Shown here: in pieces, positions 1 to 6,069 of the stretch
How positions within the stretch are numbered: the stretch's first letter is position 1
Layout of the letters: each line of letters opens with the position of its first letter
Origin: Nitrospirota bacterium
GTDB taxonomy: Bacteria > Nitrospirota > Thermodesulfovibrionia > Thermodesulfovibrionales > UBA6898
Assembly (NCBI GenBank): GCA_021787505.1
Contig: JAJYLU010000126.1
Location: 1-6,069 of the forward strand
Direction: 5' to 3'
Length of the DNA stretch: 6,069 nucleotides
Position numbers and translations under genes: made by a program
Notes under the pieces: generated by a model
Databases searched by the model: none
What the model was told of the DNA's origin: nothing
The model's input: only the letters and a program-made list of their open reading frames with translations

Positions 1-12
1 TGGGGTGAGAGT

Positions 13-279
13 ATGTGTCTTGCGATCCCATCGAGAATCGTCCGGATAGATGACCTCATGGCAATAGTCGACGTCTACGGGGCTAGAAGAGAGATAAACC
101 TCATGCTCCTAAGTGACAATGCCGAGATTGGCGACTACGTACTTGTCCATGCAGGCTTTGCGATCCAGAAGGTAGAACGGGAGGCTGCACAAGATGCGTT
201 AAGAGTCATCTCCACGATTATCGAGGAGGTTGAACGCGAGGACTTGTCCCGGGCGCCGGGGGACATGCTTTCGGGCTGA
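13..279 (+). CDS. hypC: HypC/HupF-family hydrogenase maturation chaperone
   Basis: This encodes an 88-residue cytoplasmic chaperone. The N-terminus M-C-L-A-I-P is the family signature, and Cys2 is the residue that HypC uses to bind the Fe(CN)2CO precursor and the large-subunit precursor. His47 in the D-Y-V-L-V-H-A-G-F-A-I stretch matches the other conserved family motif. Family members work with HypD and HypE to build the iron half of the active site and deliver it to the large subunit. The length is normal (about 75-100 residues). The start is fixed by the MCLAIP motif; the purine-rich GGTGAG at 4-9 is a close, imperfect ribosome binding site. The gene stops at TGA (277-279), which shows that TGA terminates translation in this organism. 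It is probably the last gene of an upstream hyp cluster, because a separate promoter-like region lies between it and hyaA. Identity is near certain; the link to this particular hydrogenase is inference from position. Confidence 0.95.
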   Translation: MCLAIPSRIVRIDDLMAIVDVYGARREINLMLLSDNAEIGDYVLVHAGFAIQKVEREAAQDALRVISTIIEEVEREDLSRAPGDMLSG

Positions 280-321
280 TCTCTTTTTTGGCCTTTTGCC
301 CATGCCGTATTCTGACGTATT

Positions 322-333
322 TCCTGGCCAGGA
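322..333. repeat. 12-bp perfect palindrome TCCTGGCCAGGA
   Basis: TCCTGGCCAGGA is its own reverse complement. It lies about 43 bases upstream of the -35 candidate, a position where an activator or repressor could bind. There is no T run and no loop, so it is not a terminator. The operator role is inference; a 12-bp palindrome can also occur by chance. Confidence 0.35.
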
Positions 334-375
334 TAAATTCCCCCTTATCATGTTAGCTTCCTTTATAATTTCAGG

Positions 376-387
376 TTGACGAGTCAA
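376..387. repeat. inverted repeat over the -35 box, possible operator
   Basis: TTGAC-GA-GTCAA is a perfect 5+2+5 inverted repeat that covers the -35 hexamer of the operon promoter. The half-sites resemble those of FNR/CRP-family sites (TTGAT-N4-ATCAA), but the 2-base spacer is too short for that family. The regulator is therefore unknown. Confidence 0.4.
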
Positions 388-404
388 AATTCTCCTGCTA
401 TGGT
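376..404 (+). promoter_or_regulatory. sigma70-like promoter of the hydrogenase operon
   Basis: TTGACG (376-381, five of six matches to the -35 consensus) is separated by exactly 17 bases from TATGGT (399-404, four of six matches to the -10). The bases TGC directly before the -10 give an extended -10 (TGN). The predicted transcript would start near 411 and carry a leader of about 148 bases before hyaA. The -35 is part of a perfect inverted repeat TTGAC-GA-GTCAA (376-387), so a bound regulator could block it. I saw no sigma54 (GG-N10-GC) site of the kind found before many other hydrogenase operons. Confidence 0.6.
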
Positions 405-425
405 GTACTCAGTGGGAGCAGGAGT

Positions 426-575
426 ATGAGCAATTATCATCCTACCGGAGAGTTATACCCGTGTGAACGGGTGCGACATCCGGCCTGTTCTCTTTTGCCA
501 TCCAACTGCAATCCTTTTTCCCCGCATTGCGATACAAATTCGAGCTTGGAGGTGCCTTATGCGCGACGAAGATGA
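426..575 (+). CDS. possible 49-residue upstream ORF overlapping hyaA
   Basis: An ATG at 426 has GGGAG at 414-418, seven bases upstream, and lies just downstream of the predicted transcription start. The frame stays open for 49 codons and ends at TGA 573-575, overlapping the hyaA start by 17 bases in another frame. The predicted peptide has four Cys (13, 21, 28, 35), four His and a basic R-R-R end, and has no recognised family. It could be a translated leader peptide coupled to hyaA, a small metal-binding protein, or a chance ORF. Its length alone is not significant; the ribosome binding site and its position are the only support. Confidence 0.25.
   Translation: MSNYHPTGELYPCERVRHPACSLLPSNCNPFSPHCDTNSSLEVPYARRR
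456..473 (+). other. hairpin in the hyaA leader
   Basis: ACCCG (457-461) pairs perfectly with CGGGT (468-472) around a 6-base loop, and a U-G pair (456/473) extends the stem. It lies inside the predicted leader, within the short upstream ORF. No T run follows, so it is not an intrinsic terminator. A role in translation or RNA stability is possible but not shown. Confidence 0.35.
548..553 (+). promoter_or_regulatory. ribosome binding site that sets the hyaA start
   Basis: GGAGGT is a perfect Shine-Dalgarno core five bases before ATG 559. It decides between this start and an upstream in-frame GTG at 463, which has no such site and would place a long extra stretch before the Tat signal. Confidence 0.85.
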
Positions 576-1671
576 AAAAGTCAGCGAATCAGCCGGAGGC
601 CCTTATCGACAGATAGTGGCACGCGGCGTTTCGAGGAGGGATTTTCTGAAGTTCTGTTCTGCGATGGCGGCGGTTCTCGGACTGCCCGGAACATTCGCCG
701 GCAAGATCGCTGAGGCGATCGAAAAGGCCGAAAGGCCGATCCTGGTATGGCTTGAGTTTCAGGACTGCGCAGGAAACACCGAGGCCCTTCTCAGGGCAAC
801 GAAGCCTACCATTACCGAGATCGTGCTTGATGTGCTTTCAGTCGATTACCACGAGACGATCATGGCGCCTGCGGGGAAGCAGGCCGAAAAATCTCTCGAG
901 GATGTCGTGAAGAACCACAAGGGGAAGTATATCGCCTGTGTGGAAGGTTCGATCCCTTTAAAGGACAACGGCGTCTATTGCTGCGTAGGAGGAAGGAGTG
1001 CGATAGACATAGCGAAAGAGGTCTGCGGCAATGCCCTTGCCACGATCGCCGTAGGCACGTGCGCCACCTCTGGCGGCATACCCGCGGCAGCGCCGAATCC
1101 GACGGGCGCTGTGGGCGTGAAAAAGGCCCTTCCCAATGTCACGGTCCTGAACCTTACGGGCTGCCCGATGAACGTCGAGAACCTCACTGCTACAGTGGTC
1201 CATTTTCTGACCTTCGGCGGTCTTCCCGCGGCCGACAGTATCGGCAGGCCCTTATTTGCATATGGAGAACGGATCCACGACCACTGCGAGCGGCGGGCGC
1301 ATTATGACGCGGGCCAGTTTGTGAAACAGTGGGGCGACGAAGGCCATCGGCAGGGATGGTGCCTCTACGAGATGGGATGCAAGGGACCGGAGACATTCGG
1401 AAACTGCCCCGTCGTCAAATACAATGAAGGGACAAGCTGGCCGGTGCAGGCCGGACACGGCTGCATCGGGTGTTTTCAACCCGAGTTCTGGGACAAAATG
1501 ACACCTTTCTACCGGAGACTGCCGAAAGTGCCGGGGTTCGGAGTGGAGGTCACGGCGGACAAGATCGGAGCAGGAGTGGCGGCGGTCGCGGCGGCTGGAG
1601 TGGCGGCGCATAGAATAGCGCGGGCGATACGAGGTAAACAGGGCAGGGAAAAGGAAGAAGATACTGAATAG
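559..1671 (+). CDS. hyaA: group 1 [NiFe] hydrogenase small subunit, Tat signal, altered proximal cluster
   Basis: This is the 370-residue Fe-S subunit that carries electrons from the Ni-Fe site to cytochrome b. A Tat signal (S-R-R-D-F-L-K-F, residues 25-32) followed by a hydrophobic stretch sends the folded heterodimer to the periplasm. A hydrophobic helix at about 334-352 anchors it in the membrane. Distal [4Fe-4S] ligands are His240, Cys243, Cys268 and Cys274. Medial ligands are Cys283, Cys302 and Cys305, with Pro295 kept, as in [3Fe-4S] medial clusters. For the proximal cluster, Cys70, Cys168 (G-T-C-A-T-S-G-G-I) and Cys202 (T-G-C-P-M-N) are present. The residue normally Cys in C-x-x-C is Asn73 (C-A-G-N), so one ligand is missing. 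AAC to a Cys codon needs two base changes, so a single read error does not explain it. The extra cysteines of O2-tolerant [4Fe-3S] enzymes are absent (Gly72, Gly173). Cys127, two residues before the conserved Glu129, may lie close to this cluster. The gene ends in TAG, 20 bases before hyaB. Confidence 0.95.
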
Positions 1672-1678
1672 AGAAAGG

Positions 1679-1684
1679 AAGGAG
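1679..1684 (+). promoter_or_regulatory. ribosome binding site supporting the hyaB start at 1692
   Basis: AAGGAG lies seven bases before ATG 1692, in the short hyaA-hyaB gap. It shows that translation of the large subunit begins upstream of the two TGA codons, so the TGA codons are inside the gene and not before it. Confidence 0.85.
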
Positions 1685-1691
1685 AGCGGAT

Positions 1692-3401
1692 ATGACAAAG
1701 ATCGCGATTGACCCGATCACGAGAATCGAGGGGCATCTGAGGATAGAGGCCCAGGTGGACGGCGGCAAAGTGTCCGACGCCTGGTCTTCGAGCACAATGT
1801 TCAGGGGCATAGAGATCGTGCTGAAAGGGAGAGACCCCAGGGACGCCTGGGCATTCACGCAGCGGATATGAGGCGTCTGAACAACGGTTCACGCCACCAG
1901 CTCCGTGAGAGCTGTAGAGAATGCGCTCGGCATCACTATCCCGAATAACGCAAGGCTGATCAGGAATCTTATCAGCGGTATCCAGTATATTCAGGACCAT
2001 GTAATTCACTTTTACCATCTGCATGCGCTCGACTGGGTGGATATCGTCAGTGCGCTCAAGGCGGACTCCGGAAAGACATCAGCCCTTGCACAGTCGATCT
2101 CGGACTGGCCGATGTCGAGTGCCGCATACTTCAAGGGAGTCCAGAACAAACTGAAAACGTTCGTGGAAAGCGGTCAGCTCGGCATATTTGCAAATGCCTA
2201 CTGGGGGCATCCCGCCTACAAACTTCCTCCTGAGGCCAACCTCATGGCAGCAGCCCATTACCTGGAGGCCCTTGACTGGCAGAGGGACGTAATACGAATA
2301 CAGGCACTGCTCGGGGCGAAGAACCCTCATGCCCAGACGTATCTGGTCGGCGGCATGGCGATCCCGATCGATGTCAACAGTGAAAACGCCTTGAATGACG
2401 GCAGCTTTGCCTTCATATCGGAAGCCTCGAAGCGGGCGAAGACATTTGTGGAGCAGGTGCTCATCCCGGATATCCTTGCGGTCGCTTCTTTCTACAAAGA
2501 ATGGGCGGGATACGGTTCCGGTATTGGAAATTATCTTGCTTACGGAGAGTTTCCAAATGACAATGTATCCAACACCGAAAATCTCTGGCTTCCCCGGGGG
2601 ATAATACTGAACAGGGACCTCGGGAAGGTACACCCAGTCGATCAGACGAAGATCGAGGAATACGTAACCCATTCCTGGTATGTTTACGGCGAGGGCGGCT
2701 CTGTTTCGAAGCATCCCTGGAACGGCGTCACCGATTATAAGTATACAGGGCCGCAGCCGCCGTACGAGTTCCTTGATACCGACAGGAAGTACAGTTGGCT
2801 CAAGGCGCCGCGCTATGAGAATATGCCGATGGAGGTGGGGCCTCTAGCAAGAATGCTTGTCGCCTATGCATCAGGACATAAGAGGGTAAAGGAGGTGGTC
2901 GATTCTGTCCTGAAGAAACTGTCTGTCGGGCCGGATGCGCTTTTCTCTACGCTTGGAAGGGTCGCTGCGCGGGGCATCGAGACGCTGGTAACCGCTGAGA
3001 TGATGTCCGTCTGGCTCAGCCAGCTGATCGAGAATGTGAAGAGGGGTGACCTGAAGATCCACGAGGGGAGTATGTGGGAGCCTTCAAAATGGCCGAAAGA
3101 GGCCAAGGGATACGGTCTCTATGAAGCGCCGCGAGGCGCCCTCGGGCACTGGGTGAAGATCAAGGACCAAAAGATCGAAAACTATCAGTGCGTCGTGCCG
3201 AGCACATGGAACGGATCGCCGAGGGACGCTACGGGGCAGCGCGGCCCTTATGAGGCGGCCCTGATCGGCACGCCTGTTGCGGACCAAACAAAGCCGGTCG
3301 AGATACTGAGGACCATCCATTCCTTTGACCCTTGTATGGCCTGTGCGGTACATGTGCTCGACGCAAACGGGAAGAAAGTGACGAGGATAAGAGTTGTGTA
3401 A
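1692..3401 (+). CDS. hyaB: [NiFe] hydrogenase large subunit with two selenocysteines in the L1 motif
   Basis: This is the catalytic subunit, 569 residues including two TGA-encoded residues, a normal length for group 1. Motifs in order: D-P-I-T-R-I-E-G-H at 7-15 (Glu13 is the conserved proton-path Glu); L1 at 58-67, reading R-I-U-G-V-U-T-T-V-H with Sec60 and Sec63; [10 protein letters not shown] at 478-487 (Arg481 is the second-shell arginine); N-Y-Q-C-V-V-P at 497-503 with P-R-D at 510-512; L2 D-P-C-M-A-C-A-V-H at 546-554. Cys548 and Cys551 complete the Ni ligands. The 15 residues after His554 are the tail removed by the endopeptidase. The frame is open throughout apart from the two TGA codons, both of which sit on invariant Ni-ligand positions. 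In known [NiFeSe] enzymes the single Sec is the first Cys of L2; here L2 is all cysteine. A naive reading starts at GTG 1905, loses 71 residues including half the Ni site, and would be called a truncated gene. The stop is TAA at 3399-3401. Confidence 0.93.
1869..1871 (+). other. in-frame TGA read as selenocysteine 60
   Basis: Codon 60 of hyaB is TGA at the first cysteine of the L1 C-x-x-C. This residue is a terminal Ni ligand in structurally known group 1 enzymes (equivalent to Cys76 of E. coli Hyd-1). Both flanks match the conserved family motif in the same frame. TGC or TGT becomes TGA by one base change. Confidence 0.9.
1872..1895 (+). promoter_or_regulatory. candidate SECIS hairpin 1, directly after TGA 60
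   Basis: GGCGU (1872-1876) pairs with ACGCC (1891-1895) and GAAC (1879-1882) with GUUC (1887-1890), with a two-base CU bulge (1877-1878) on the 5' side and an AACG loop. This gives nine Watson-Crick pairs starting right at the first TGA, with a bulged U as in the E. coli fdhF SECIS. The second TGA lies inside this stem. The loop guanine is only about 15 bases past the TGA, at the short edge of the bacterial range. Paired by eye; no energy was computed. Confidence 0.5.
1878..1880 (+). other. in-frame TGA read as selenocysteine 63
   Basis: Codon 63 of hyaB is TGA at the second cysteine of L1, the residue that bridges Ni and Fe in group 1 enzymes (equivalent to Cys79 of E. coli Hyd-1). It is followed in frame by T-T-V-H-A, the expected continuation of the motif. 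Confidence 0.9.
1898..1914 (+). promoter_or_regulatory. candidate SECIS hairpin 2
   Basis: CAGCUC (1898-1903) pairs perfectly with GAGCUG (1909-1914) around the loop CGUGA (1904-1908), which shows the GU typical of bacterial SECIS apical loops. The loop G (1905) is 25 bases after TGA 63 and 34 after TGA 60. Both distances fall within the roughly 16-37 base range known for bacterial SECIS elements, so one element could serve both codons. The stem is short (six pairs), and function is inference. Confidence 0.6.
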
Positions 3402-3413
3402 AAGGAGATCGCC

Positions 3414-4067
3414 ATGGAAAGAAAGATATACGTATGGGAAGCGCCGGTACGGGTTACTCACTGGATAAGCGTTCTTTGTCTTGTCACGCTTGCCCTCACC
3501 GGCGTATATATCGGTAACCCCTTTATTACGGCGACCTCCGCAGATCAGTACCTCATGGGGTGGGTGAGGTTTGTTCATTTCGTTGCAGCTTATATTTTTG
3601 TGGTAAACCTTGCGGTCCGCATCTACTGGTCTTTCGCCGGAAACAAGTATGCCACCTGGAAAGCACTCTTTCCGTTCAGCCCGGAGCGGATAATAACTCT
3701 TTTCAGGCAGATGTCGTTTTACGCCTTGATCAGCACGAAGCCTCCTTCGGAGATAGGTCATACGCCTCTTGGGGGTATTGTCTATTTCCTCATACTCGTC
3801 CTCTGCGGTATTTCCGCTGTCACCGGCTTTGCACTCTTTTCGCTCTACAATCCCGCGGGACCGATGCACACGCTCTTCGGCTGGGTCTTTTCTCTTGCAG
3901 CGATAGCTACGGTGAGGCTCATACACCATCTCATCATGTGGTTCCTTATTTACTTCGTTATTGTGCATATCTATATTGTGCTGTTTCTTGATTCGGTCGA
4001 AAAAAACGGTTTGCTGAGCAGTATATTCGACGGATACAAGTTTGTGGAGGAGAAGAAGGCGAAATGA
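3414..4067 (+). CDS. hyaC: Ni/Fe-hydrogenase b-type cytochrome subunit
   Basis: This 217-residue integral membrane diheme cytochrome b takes electrons from the HyaA distal cluster and passes them to quinone. It opens with the family motif W-E-A-P-V-R-V-T-H-W (8-17), followed by transmembrane segments at about 18-36, 50-72, 121-143 and 168-192. The histidines expected to bind the two hemes are present: His16, His55 (R-F-V-H-F), the His171/172 pair and His185 (V-H-I-Y). The family-typical R-I-Y-W-S-F-A-G-N-K-Y-A lies at 69-80. Length matches HyaC/HupC (about 220-240). AAAGGAG (3401-3407) sits six bases before the ATG and overlaps the hyaB stop, so translation is tightly linked. The TGA stop overlaps the hyaD ATG (ATGA at 4064-4067). 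Its presence shows the enzyme feeds the respiratory chain instead of a soluble periplasmic cytochrome c. Confidence 0.95.
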   Translation: MERKIYVWEAPVRVTHWISVLCLVTLALTGVYIGNPFITATSADQYLMGWVRFVHFVAAYIFVVNLAVRIYWSFAGNKYATWKALFPFSPERIITLFRQMSFYALISTKPPSEIGHTPLGGIVYFLILVLCGISAVTGFALFSLYNPAGPMHTLFGWVFSLAAIATVRLIHHLIMWFLIYFVIVHIYIVLFLDSVEKNGLLSSIFDGYKFVEEKKAK

Positions 4068-4564
4068 GGACGGCTGTTCTCGGAGTCGGCAATATCCTTC
4101 TCAGCGACGAGGGTGTCGGGGTCCGGGCGATAGAGGCCCTGACGGACAGGTATACTTTCTCCGGAGAAATGGAATGCATAGACGGCGGCACCATGGGGCT
4201 CGATCTTCTTCCCTTTATCGAAGGAAAAGACAGACTTCTCATAATAGACGCCGTGAATGCCGAGATGTCCCCCGGAACCGTCATCAGGATTGAGAACGAA
4301 GACATACCGAAGTTTTTGGGACAAAAACTCTCTGTGCATCAGATTGGTCTTCCGGAGATGCTCTCGGCCGCCGCGCTTATGTCGATTTTGCCGGAGGAGA
4401 TATGCCTCATCGGAATGCAGCCGGAAAAACTTGAAACAGGCCTCATTCTCTCCGGTGTCGTGTCGGCCCGTTTCAATGATCTTATCTTTGCGGCGATCAC
4501 AAAACTCGCGGAATGGGGGATAGAAGCTAGAGAGAGACCTGTTGTTTATGTCCCGCAGGGTTGA
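4064..4564 (+). CDS. hyaD: hydrogenase maturation endopeptidase (HyaD/HupD, peptidase M52)
   Basis: This 166-residue cytoplasmic protease removes the C-terminal tail of the large subunit after Ni insertion. It begins V-L-G-V-G-N-I-L-L-S-D-E-G-V-G-V (5-20), the family signature. The Ni-recognising residues known from HybD are all present: Glu16, Asp62 (I-I-D-A-V) and His92 (S-V-H-Q). The substrate is presumably HyaB, cut after His554 in D-P-C-M-A-C-A-V-H. The protease acts only once metal is bound, so here it would have to recognise a site with two selenolate ligands from L1. That is interesting, but its own sequence shows no obvious change. It starts in an ATGA overlap with hyaC and ends in a TTGA overlap with the next gene, both signs of one transcript. 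Confidence 0.95.
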   Translation: MRTAVLGVGNILLSDEGVGVRAIEALTDRYTFSGEMECIDGGTMGLDLLPFIEGKDRLLIIDAVNAEMSPGTVIRIENEDIPKFLGQKLSVHQIGLPEMLSAAALMSILPEEICLIGMQPEKLETGLILSGVVSARFNDLIFAAITKLAEWGIEARERPVVYVPQG

Positions 4565-5826
4565 CAAAAAGGCCGAGCGACTTTACATTACCTGACATGC
4601 AGAGAAGAAACCGCCGGCAGATAGTCAGTTGGTGCCTGTTCGACTTCGCAAATTCAAGCTATTCGGCGGTCATCGCCGCGGTGGTCTTCCCCGTCTACTA
4701 CGTGCAGGTTATTGTCGGCGATGCCTCCGGGCTCGGCGACCTGTGGTGGGGAAGGGCCATCTCTTTCAGTATGGCGTTCGTGGCGCTTACTTCCCCTTTC
4801 CTGGGAGGAATAGCTGATTACAGCGGAAGGCGCAAGGGGTTTCTGCTTTTCTATACGCTTCTTTGTGTGTGCTGCGTCTCAGCCCTGGTCCTGCTCAAGA
4901 AGGGCATGGTAATAGAGGGGTTTCTTCTCGTAACGGCGGCGAACGTGGGTATGGAGGGCGGACTAGTGTTCTATAACGCCTTCTTGCCGGAAATAGCCGA
5001 AAGAGAATTTCAGGGCAGGGTATCGGCCTGGGGATACGCGATCGGGTATGCAGGGTCGATCGCTTCATTGCTCATCGCGCTCCCGCTCATTAAGAGCGGT
5101 CAGTACAACGCTGCATGGCTGATGGTGGCTGTCTTTTTTTCCTTTTTCTCCCTCCCCGCCTTTATTTTTCTCAGTCAGGGAAGCCGGAAGGGGCTTTCTT
5201 TGCGGGGGGCCGCAATAAAGGGAGGCAACCATTCCTGGACTACCTTGAAAGCGATATGGGGGAGACGGGAGGTCCGGAGATTTCTCCTCGCCTTTCTTAT
5301 TTACGACGACGGGATTAATACCGTCATCGTATTTTCGAGCATCTTCGCTGCTGCCACCCTCGGATTCGGAGCAAAGGAACTCGTTGGCCTCTATATGGTC
5401 GTTCAGGTGACGGCACTCTTCGGGGCCTTTGTGATGGCCCGTCCGATTGACTACTGGGGACCGAAGAGGGTCGTGACGCTGTCATTAGTGTTGTGGTCAA
5501 TCGTTGCGGTCGCAGCCTACGTGATCTACAATAAGGTCTATTTCTGGGCGCTCGCCTGCTGTGCCGGCCTCGGGCTCGGCACGGTGCAGGCGGCCAGCAG
5601 GGCCTTTTTTGCACAATTTATCCCGCCGGGACGCGAAAGCGAATATTTCGGGGTCTTTTCACTTGTCGGCAAATCCTCCGCCGTTGCAGGGCCGCTTCTG
5701 TTCGGATATGTTTCCTCGACGTTTGGAAGCCAGCGGCCGGCCATACTTGCGATATCGGCATTCTTTATAACGGGGCTGCTGCTGATACGGGGCGTCAGAG
5801 GCGGCGGTCCGAACATCGTCGAGTAG
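4561..5826 (+). CDS. MFS transporter, UMF1 / ATG22-like family
   Basis: This predicted 421-residue membrane protein has about 12 hydrophobic segments and a polar central loop at about 206-236. Family marks are W-C-L-F-D-F-A-N-S-S-Y-S (24-35), the MFS motif A-like G-G-I-A-D-Y-S-G-R-R-K (82-92), Y-N-A-F-L-P-E-I-A (138-146) and S-R-A-F-F-A-Q-F-I-P-P-G-R-E (346-359), which together match the bacterial UMF1 branch related to yeast vacuolar ATG22. The substrate is unknown. The chosen start is TTG 4561, which overlaps the hyaD stop and gives a plausible N-terminus; ATG 4597 is an alternative but has no ribosome binding site. The overlap places it in the hydrogenase transcript, yet no hydrogenase role is known for the family, so it may be a passenger. 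The stop is TAG. Confidence 0.85.
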   Translation: MTKRPSDFTLPDMQRRNRRQIVSWCLFDFANSSYSAVIAAVVFPVYYVQVIVGDASGLGDLWWGRAISFSMAFVALTSPFLGGIADYSGRRKGFLLFYTLLCVCCVSALVLLKKGMVIEGFLLVTAANVGMEGGLVFYNAFLPEIAEREFQGRVSAWGYAIGYAGSIASLLIALPLIKSGQYNAAWLMVAVFFSFFSLPAFIFLSQGSRKGLSLRGAAIKGGNHSWTTLKAIWGRREVRRFLLAFLIYDDGINTVIVFSSIFAAATLGFGAKELVGLYMVVQVTALFGAFVMARPIDYWGPKRVVTLSLVLWSIVAVAAYVIYNKVYFWALACCAGLGLGTVQAASRAFFAQFIPPGRESEYFGVFSLVGKSSAVAGPLLFGYVSSTFGSQRPAILAISAFFITGLLLIRGVRGGGPNIVE

Positions 5827-5863
5827 TTTCCCTGGAAAGGAGATTTTTATCCCTCAATCACGA

Positions 5864-5869
5864 TATAAT
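5864..5869 (+). promoter_or_regulatory. perfect -10 box (TATAAT) directly before the response regulator
   Basis: TATAAT ends five bases before ATG 5875, so transcription from it would begin at or next to the start codon and give a leaderless or nearly leaderless mRNA. No good -35 is visible at 16-18 bases upstream (around 5841 it reads AGATTT), which weakens the call. Confidence 0.35.
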
Positions 5870-5874
5870 TAACT

Positions 5875-6069
5875 ATGCGCGTATTACTTGTAGAAGACGA
5901 ACAGAATGTGGCCAATTTTTTGAAGAAAGGTCTGGAGGAGGAGTTTTATACCGTAGACGTGGCCGAGGACGGCGCCGAAGGATATAGCATGGCCACGTCA
6001 AAGGAATACGACTGCCTCATACTCGACGTCATGCTCCCTCAACTCAGCGGCATAGAGATATGCAAGAAG
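5875..6069 (+). CDS. OmpR-type response regulator, N-terminal part (runs off the window)
   Basis: The first 65 residues of a receiver domain are visible. M-R-V-L-L-V-E-D-E opens the domain, Glu7/Asp8 form the acidic Mg-binding pocket, and Asp51 in L-I-L-D-V-M-L-P is the phosphorylation site. The sequence looks like the OmpR/PhoB class, usually paired with a membrane histidine kinase, but the DNA-binding domain lies beyond the window. TAA at 5866-5868 is in frame just upstream, so the gene cannot start earlier. There is no Shine-Dalgarno at the right distance; an AAAGGAG at 5836-5842 is 32 bases away. A new transcription unit probably begins here. Whether it controls the hydrogenase is unknown. 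Confidence 0.9.
   Translation, partial: MRVLLVEDEQNVANFLKKGLEEEFYTVDVAEDGAEGYSMATSKEYDCLILDVMLPQLSGIEICKK

Follow-up and report, generated by a model that had tools for sequence, protein, structure and literature searches.

Two in-frame UGA codons at the L1 nickel ligands of a Nitrospirota [NiFe]-hydrogenase: a candidate natural class with a predicted Se2S2 nickel site

The selenium hydrogenases VhuU/MvhA and FrhA, found in methanogens and some bacteria, are group 3 enzymes in which selenocysteine (Sec) serves as a nickel ligand. They harbor one Sec in a UxxC motif (PMC13188914). In natural [NiFeSe] hydrogenases, one Sec replaces one of the four Ni-binding cysteines (PMC4730141, PMC7324405), and its position is taken to be special for proton transfer and O2 tolerance (PMC4730141, PMC9961374, PMC11212049). 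The HysAB type of Desulfovibrio and Desulfomicrobium, which has a group 1 large subunit, carries this Sec in its C-terminal motif (L2). The subject here is a stretch of 6,069 nucleotides from a Nitrospirota bacterium (assembly GCA_021787505.1, contig JAJYLU010000126.1, positions 1 to 6,069, forward strand; hereafter, the window). It contains a gene for a [NiFe]-hydrogenase large subunit with in-frame TGA codons at both cysteine positions of the other nickel-binding motif, L1.

Single Sec residues have been placed artificially at each of the four ligand positions of the Escherichia coli hydrogenases Hyd-1 and Hyd-2, L1 included, one at a time, and the accessible part of the report describes no double L1 variant (PMC11212049). 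A 2026 inventory of 119 prokaryotic selenoprotein families and subfamilies lists hydrogenase alpha subunits as UxxC only, with one Sec, and FrhD/VhuD as CxxU (PMC13188914); a 2022 review gives the same alpha-subunit motifs (PMC9312934), and no L1 Sec is named in PMC1794560 or PMC1914089. Two Sec codons nine bases apart likewise occur in UxxU proteins, namely a Prx-like oxidoreductase and a mercuric-reductase-like metal-binding protein (PMC13188914), which differ in having no bimetallic hydrogenase site. All sources cited by PMC number were available in part, and statements drawn from them, above all on what they omit, extend to those parts. No report of a natural L1 Sec was found in the open-access literature searched, a scope outside which bioRxiv preprints and most subscription papers lie.

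The frame from ATG 1692 to the TAA at 3399-3401 encodes 569 amino acids (aa) when TGA is read through, with exactly two TGA codons inside it, spaced nine bases apart. L1 then reads R-I-U-G-V-U-T-T-V-H, and the solved structures aligned at this place have R-I-C-G-V-C or R-T-C-G-V-C. A reading made earlier from the sequence only had described two TGA codons, nine bases apart, replacing both L1 cysteines in a frame otherwise open for 569 residues; the frame and codons, read again, and the PF00374 match bear this out. The features concerned are the following.

1692 to 3401, forward strand: [NiFe]-hydrogenase large subunit, 569 aa with both TGA codons as Sec (PF00374, 5.6e-240; best solved relative 3myr_B, 749 bits)
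1869 to 1871, forward strand: TGA replacing the first L1 cysteine, residue 60 (aligned to Cys of solved structures)
1878 to 1880, forward strand: TGA replacing the second L1 cysteine, residue 63 (aligned to Cys of solved structures)
1898 to 1914, forward strand: predicted hairpin of the selenocysteine insertion sequence (SECIS) type, CAGCUC-CGUGA-GAGCUG (stronger than synonymous-codon shuffles in Sec, not Cys, genes)
3333 to 3353, forward strand: L2 motif C-M-A-C-A-V-H, with Cys TGT 3333, Cys TGT 3342 and His 3351 (read from the sequence)

PF00374 covers residues 38-554 of the protein with 798 bits (cut-off 25.8; 5.6e-240). Group 1 large subunits have four cysteines, as CxxC in both L1 and L2; the window protein has TGA/TGA in L1 and Cys/Cys in L2 (D-P-C-M-A-C-A-V-H, both cysteines TGT), and fits this family if Sec stands in for Cys. 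Maturation cleavage would presumably follow the L2 histidine. The HysA type, defined by Sec as the first L2 ligand residue, has one Sec in the C-terminal motif, whereas the window protein has Cys (TGT) at that place, two predicted Sec in L1 and none in L2. The NCBIfam HysA-type models score below their cut-offs (NF045518, 424.2 bits against 780; NF033181, 565.5 bits against 600), and the protein resembles 3myr and other [NiFe] chains (749 bits) more closely than HysA chains (351 bits). From VhuU/MvhA and FrhA it differs in having two Sec rather than one.

The two-TGA motif recurs widely. A DNA pattern for U-G-V-U-T-[TS]-V-H, run over 84,980 species genomes, gave at least 119 stretches, with about 7 expected by chance (257 Gb, two strands, ~18 specified bases, equal base use). 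Among the matches listed, 116 of 119 lie in a hydrogenase frame, so that the L1 UxxU motif, which the sequence-only reading had proposed to look for elsewhere, is a recurrent one; the other three (L050, L143 and L145; L, G and C numbers denote loci, genomes and contigs) lie outside any hydrogenase frame and look like chance matches. By record title, the matches listed comprise 76 from Nitrospirota, 30 from Chloroflexota, 3 from 'Deltaproteobacteria', 1 from 'Proteobacteria', 6 without a taxon and the 3 chance matches, with at least two stretches sharing one metagenome-assembled genome (MAG; L065, L076). The titles of the two-TGA loci L049, L085, L087 and L074, which name Deltaproteobacteria or Proteobacteria, may be outdated or incorrect. 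L2 could be read in 92 of the 116 pattern loci among the matches listed, with Cys/Cys in every one.

Sampling 395 genomes of the window's phylum yielded 147 large-subunit matches (E <= 1e-120) in 141 of them: 71 with two TGA codons, 27 with one and 49 with none, five of the latter having TAA or TAG inside the aligned stretch. L1 was read in all 98 TGA-bearing matches and in 27 of the 49 TGA-free ones, giving 71 Sec-Sec, 27 Cys-Sec (TGA at the second place only) and 27 Cys-Cys forms; no Sec-Cys form (TGA at the first place only) was present among these L1 reads. Over the 247 genes read, which include the pattern loci and count some genomes twice, L2 could be seen in 222 and was Cys/Cys throughout. 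Independent assemblies have TGA at both L1 places, including a Nitrospirae MAG, SKS1.bin124 (L077), with 95% DNA identity to the window over two long pieces and the same two TGA codons. About a hundred other bacterial genomes thus have these two codons at matching positions, and the two-TGA L1 is confirmed as a real feature, neither sequencing error nor pseudogene. Beyond the single enzyme of the sequence-only reading, there is a widespread class, plus a second class with Sec at the second L1 position only.

Exchange between Sec and Cys at precisely the two L1 sites is what a selenoprotein usually shows. The in-frame UGA codons align with Cys of homologues, and the relatives show clean TGA/TGC/TGT exchange at the two codons rather than scattered stops, the pattern that would have spoken against the sequence-only reading. 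A SECIS-like hairpin is also predicted just 3′ of the UGA codons, starting 17 bases past the second and 26 past the first. It folds at -8.4 kcal/mol, compared with a mean of -2.95 for dinucleotide shuffles of 1895-1917 (z -3.11), a stretch picked once the hairpin had been seen; the whole stretch 1881-1925 is unexceptional against such shuffles (z -0.59).

The hairpin was compared across relatives by scoring a 21-base stretch against synonymous shuffles, which preserve both the encoded protein and the codon usage of the gene. The mean z is -2.10 (n=99, 93% under -1) for two-TGA genes of Nitrospirota and of unnamed or oddly named origin, and -1.76 (n=30, 97% under -1) for those of Chloroflexota; for Cys-Sec genes of the window's clade, the mean is -2.48 (n=4). 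Cys-Cys genes show no such excess, with mean z values of 0.02 (n=12, 0% under -1) and, in Chloroflexota, 0.16 (n=28, 11%), and neither does a control stretch farther downstream. A second hairpin directly 3′ of the first UGA folds well in the window, yet across relatives it barely exceeds shuffles (mean z -0.55 for the Nitrospirota set and 0.27 for Chloroflexota). For this reason one hairpin is assumed for both UGA codons, and we infer that a single SECIS would serve the two. The RNAalifold consensus of all two-TGA sequences is a 3-pair stem only, perhaps because two stem registers are mixed. A G at the third base of the loop Val codon, tried as a Sec marker, is present in 128 of 129 two-TGA genes and 1 of 12 Cys forms of the first set, and was dropped because 18 of 28 Chloroflexota Cys forms also have GTG.

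The sequence-only reading had called for Sec genes in the same genome. In the source genome (2.2 Mb, 393 contigs, 66.7% complete), selA (613.7 bits) and selB (372.3 bits) share one contig and tRNA-Sec (selC) scores 65.4 bits with anticodon TCA, so the expectation holds for selA, selB and selC; for selD the best score, 60 bits, lies below the cut-off in this incomplete genome. All four other searched genomes of the genus (G015-G018) have a selD above the cut-off with one in-frame TGA, which in G017 reads S-S-C-A-G-U-A-A-K, the UxxK site of SelD. The selB search covered 80 of the 141 phylum genomes with a large-subunit match and found selB above the cut-off in 69: in 49 of 49 carriers of a Sec-Sec or Cys-Sec gene and in 20 of 31 genomes without TGA in the gene (raw counts, uncorrected for relatedness). 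The 11 selB-less genomes, all without TGA, are G196, G283, G396, G063, G045, G054, G082, G310, G250, G039 and G228. Behind the Chloroflexota (30) and oddly labelled (4) two-TGA loci, selB is above the cut-off in 28 of 34 genomes. The other six have selA above the cut-off in every case (546 to 587 bits) and, in five of the six, tRNA-Sec above the gathering score, two of them borderline. A further observation concerns a second tRNA-Sec-like gene with anticodon GCA at L273 (G017:C10) and L277 (G007:C12), scoring 62 and 57 bits to RF01852; ARAGORN names these long-armed, Cys-decoding tRNAs tRNA-Cys, and each stands beside a normal tRNA-Sec.

Taken together, the sequence-only reading is well supported, because the codons, their recurrence, the Sec machinery and the hairpin signal all agree with Sec, whose insertion is predicted. 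Several results weigh against it. No Rfam family matched the window at its gathering score, fixed-register pair counting fails to separate Sec from Cys genes, and the distances between hairpin and UGA codons differ from those in E. coli fdhF. Besides the source genome, another two-TGA carrier, G003 (70% complete), gave no selD above the cut-off. The selB score is below the cut-off in 6 of the 34 genomes behind the Chloroflexota and oddly labelled loci (G402, G406, G421, G426, G427 and G428); G426 (L154) and G428 (L161) have no selB match at E <= 1e-40, the hydrogenase of G428 lying on a 5.35 Mb contig, and inspection of the genes beside selA, with a positive control included, revealed no selB in G402, G421, G426 or G428. 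Within Chloroflexota, to which G428 is assigned by the titles of its relatives, Cys forms predominate. Among 400 sampled genomes of this phylum, 43 gave 50 matches in all (E <= 1e-150); the 30 loci read at L1 comprise 2 Sec-Sec and 28 Cys-Cys forms, and two of the 20 unread matches carry one TGA. On these sample counts, two Sec residues are usual in the window's closest relatives of the same phylum but exceptional in Chloroflexota.

Among other explanations, the one that survives best holds that translation passes both UGA codons with cysteine, or a mixture of Cys and Sec, inserted there, for example by a Cys-charged tRNA-Sec under selenium scarcity. A Cys product would work, as the homologues without TGA that were read have Cys, and in two genomes of the family a tRNA-Sec-like gene has a Cys anticodon. 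Such an anticodon (GCA), however, decodes UGC/UGU and not UGA, and the source genome has SelA and a tRNA-Sec with the TCA anticodon. Moreover, UGA and the hairpin appear to be kept by selection even though Cys codons are one base away and are repeatedly found in relatives. Decoding as cysteine is thus unlikely, and insertion of Sec remains the preferred reading.

A shorter product is considerably less likely still. A length of 498 aa and the start V/M-R-A-V-E, corresponding to residue 72, beyond both TGA places, are shared by 46 of the 120 database proteins listed as nearest (e.g., P0004, P0070 and P0113), and the true product could in principle be this 498-aa protein, translated from GTG 1905 and devoid of L1. 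However, loss of L1 would leave a large subunit unable to bind the metal site. Residues 7-59 hold the proton-gate motif R-I-E-G-H, which, like A-P-R-G and D-P-C-x-x-C-x-x-H, is invariant across 94 two-Sec proteins of the window's clade. Comparing the window gene with two-TGA relatives gives a ratio of nonsynonymous to synonymous substitution (dN/dS) of 0 (L014), 0.05 (L015) and 0.04 (L016) for codons 1-59, the three usable comparisons, and 0.12 (L014) and 0.04 (L015) for codons 64-569; these five are the usable values among 14 comparisons, eight having no usable synonymous distance and one containing N. The low values on each side point to protein-level constraint on both flanks of the TGA codons. 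The 498-aa database proteins are probably two-TGA genes cut short by misplaced starts, and because 46 of the 120 nearest proteins listed begin after L1, such enzymes have probably often been missed or misread in genome surveys.

A broken gene or sequencing error, with which the stops of gene callers here and the same 498-aa forms would agree, is refuted to a negligible probability by the recurrence of the same codons in 71 phylum-sample copies and at least 116 pattern loci, and the operon is conserved and dN/dS low on both sides in the usable comparisons. General reassignment of UGA to a sense codon in the lineage, which would equally place TGA in-frame within a long frame, is just as negligible and likewise refuted: TGA is the stop codon of three genes in the window (hypC and those for the cytochrome and the protease), so that UGA is a stop in general here, and within the large subunit TGA is confined to L1.

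With both L1 UGA codons predicted to be read as Sec, the window very probably encodes a membrane-bound hydrogen-uptake hydrogenase, exported by the twin-arginine translocation (Tat) pathway, whose nickel is held by two selenolates from L1 and two thiolates from L2. With Sec inserted as predicted, this ligand set, proposed in the sequence-only reading, finds support in the sequence and in the known ligand roles. The first L1 cysteine is taken to be terminal on Ni and the second to bridge Ni and Fe (D. gigas and D. vulgaris numbering); given these roles, residue 60 would be a terminal and residue 63 a bridging selenolate. In the proposed mechanism, SelB and Sec-tRNA docked on one hairpin would decode the two UGA codons in turn, HypC, the other Hyp proteins and the protease would build the usual NiFe(CN)2CO site, and electrons would pass from the small subunit through cytochrome b to the quinone pool. 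The effects on proton transfer, O2 and CO sensitivity and repair that the sequence-only reading had drawn from this ligand set are predictions.

The benefit is the weakest step. Most likely, selenium in L1 would make over-oxidation of these ligands reversible and lower their proton affinity, so that anaerobes exposed to oxidants could re-activate the enzyme quickly and take up hydrogen. Cys75 of the one-Sec [NiFeSe] enzyme is presumably the first L1 cysteine. This large-subunit residue is named as oxidised in that enzyme (PMC7324405), hence the guess that selenium guards L1 against lasting oxidation. In E. coli Hyd-2, all four single-Sec variants oxidise hydrogen, less than the native enzyme (PMC11212049); the two L1 variants, with Sec in place of Cys61 or Cys64, had their masses confirmed and oxidise hydrogen below the native level (PMC11212049). 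Two engineering results speak against a benefit: in Hyd-1, hydrogen oxidation fell whichever of the four ligand positions held Sec (PMC9961374), and raised O2 tolerance is reported for the L2 place of the natural [NiFeSe] enzymes, not for L1 (PMC9961374, PMC11212049). The lack of Sec in most Chloroflexota relatives (28 of the 30 loci read) also speaks against it. Since the engineered L1 Sec variants are active, L1 selenium appears chemically workable; the benefit gains no support from engineering.

The phylogenies indicate that Sec and Cys forms interchange repeatedly. In a 150-row FastTree tree, two-Sec genes from both phyla fall in the window's clade, and Cys-Cys and Cys-Sec forms nest among them, requiring at least 7 changes of state; a 179-row FastTree tree with the Chloroflexota Cys forms requires 10. 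An 80-row IQ-TREE tree that includes ten database proteins (P numbers, whose L1 letters come from predicted proteins) needs at least 14, several of its deeper branches being weakly supported. Neighboring Cys-Cys and two-Sec genes in this tree are, for example, P0001-L167 (99/84), P0026-L115 (100/100) and P0030-L105 (100/99). A single clade of 35 two-Sec rows, a group named after the tree was seen, is rejected (p-AU 1.2e-5). Cys orthologues of the same clade (P0001, L200 and L297), up to 80% identical to the window protein, carry cysteines at the two L1 positions, and those read at DNA level show no hairpin stronger than shuffles; one-Sec forms of the clade are 64-68% identical. Positions that change along with Sec show many differences, which are inseparable from descent.

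A Hyb-like paralogue clade, represented in the source genome by L002 (G000:C287:1283-2971) and elsewhere by L018-L036 and L231-L240, is mostly C-G-V-U (Cys-Sec). Cys-Cys forms stand at its base, L234 (G277) is Sec-Sec and L237 is Cys-Cys. Its hairpin is a different one, closer to the single UGA (mean z -2.63, n=26). Because L234 is Sec-Sec within a Cys-Sec paralogue clade, the simplest reading is that Sec-Sec arose at least twice. The paralogue would constitute a second selenium hydrogenase type, unlisted in the accessible part of the 2026 inventory (PMC13188914).

All these results are probably best described by a natural Se2S2 hydrogenase class of Nitrospirota and Chloroflexota, with a terminal and a bridging selenolate encoded by two Sec codons nine bases apart under one shared SECIS. 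It would have been reached along a ladder from Cys-Cys through Cys-Sec to Sec-Sec, the bridging position first, with at least two origins, in two hydrogenase types and with two hairpins. Natural selenium at the other ligand pair would provide a ready experiment on the role of each ligand. The class would also add a hydrogenase selenoprotein family missing from the 2026 inventory, as far as its accessible part extends (PMC13188914).

Some genomes, namely G303 (L207, L213), G207 (L215, L216) and G135 (L218, L225), each encode both a Sec and a Cys-Cys version of the large subunit from the same clade. Methanogens switch between isoenzymes in a selenium-dependent manner, and by analogy these pairs might represent such a switch.

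The genes around the large subunit are those of a group 1 operon: a small subunit with a Tat signal, a b-type cytochrome and a maturation protease are all present. From this family, the window enzyme is presumed to be hydrogen-oxidising and quinone-linked. The neighboring features are as follows.

13 to 279, forward strand: HypC-type maturation chaperone with a TGA stop (profile matches)
559 to 1671, forward strand: hydrogenase small subunit with Tat signal and proximal-cluster motif C-A-G-N; its start codon may lie elsewhere (TIGR00391, TIGR01409)
3414 to 4067, forward strand: b-type cytochrome subunit, the quinone-side partner (TIGR02125 above cut-off)
4064 to 4564, forward strand: HyaD/HybD-type maturation protease (TIGR00140 above cut-off)

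At the testable two-TGA loci of the window's clade, the small subunit lies upstream in 139 of 149, and the cytochrome and protease lie downstream in 144 of 156 and 101 of 108, respectively. Residue 73 of the window's small subunit (559-1671) is Asn, where C-x-G-C has the second Cys of the proximal cluster. In the 155 two-Sec operons read, this residue is Asp in 80, Asn in 55 and Cys in 20, and within the same clade it is Asp in 4 of 4 Cys-Sec operons, and Cys in 6 and Asp in 3 of 9 Cys-Cys operons; these are raw counts in which related operons are counted separately.

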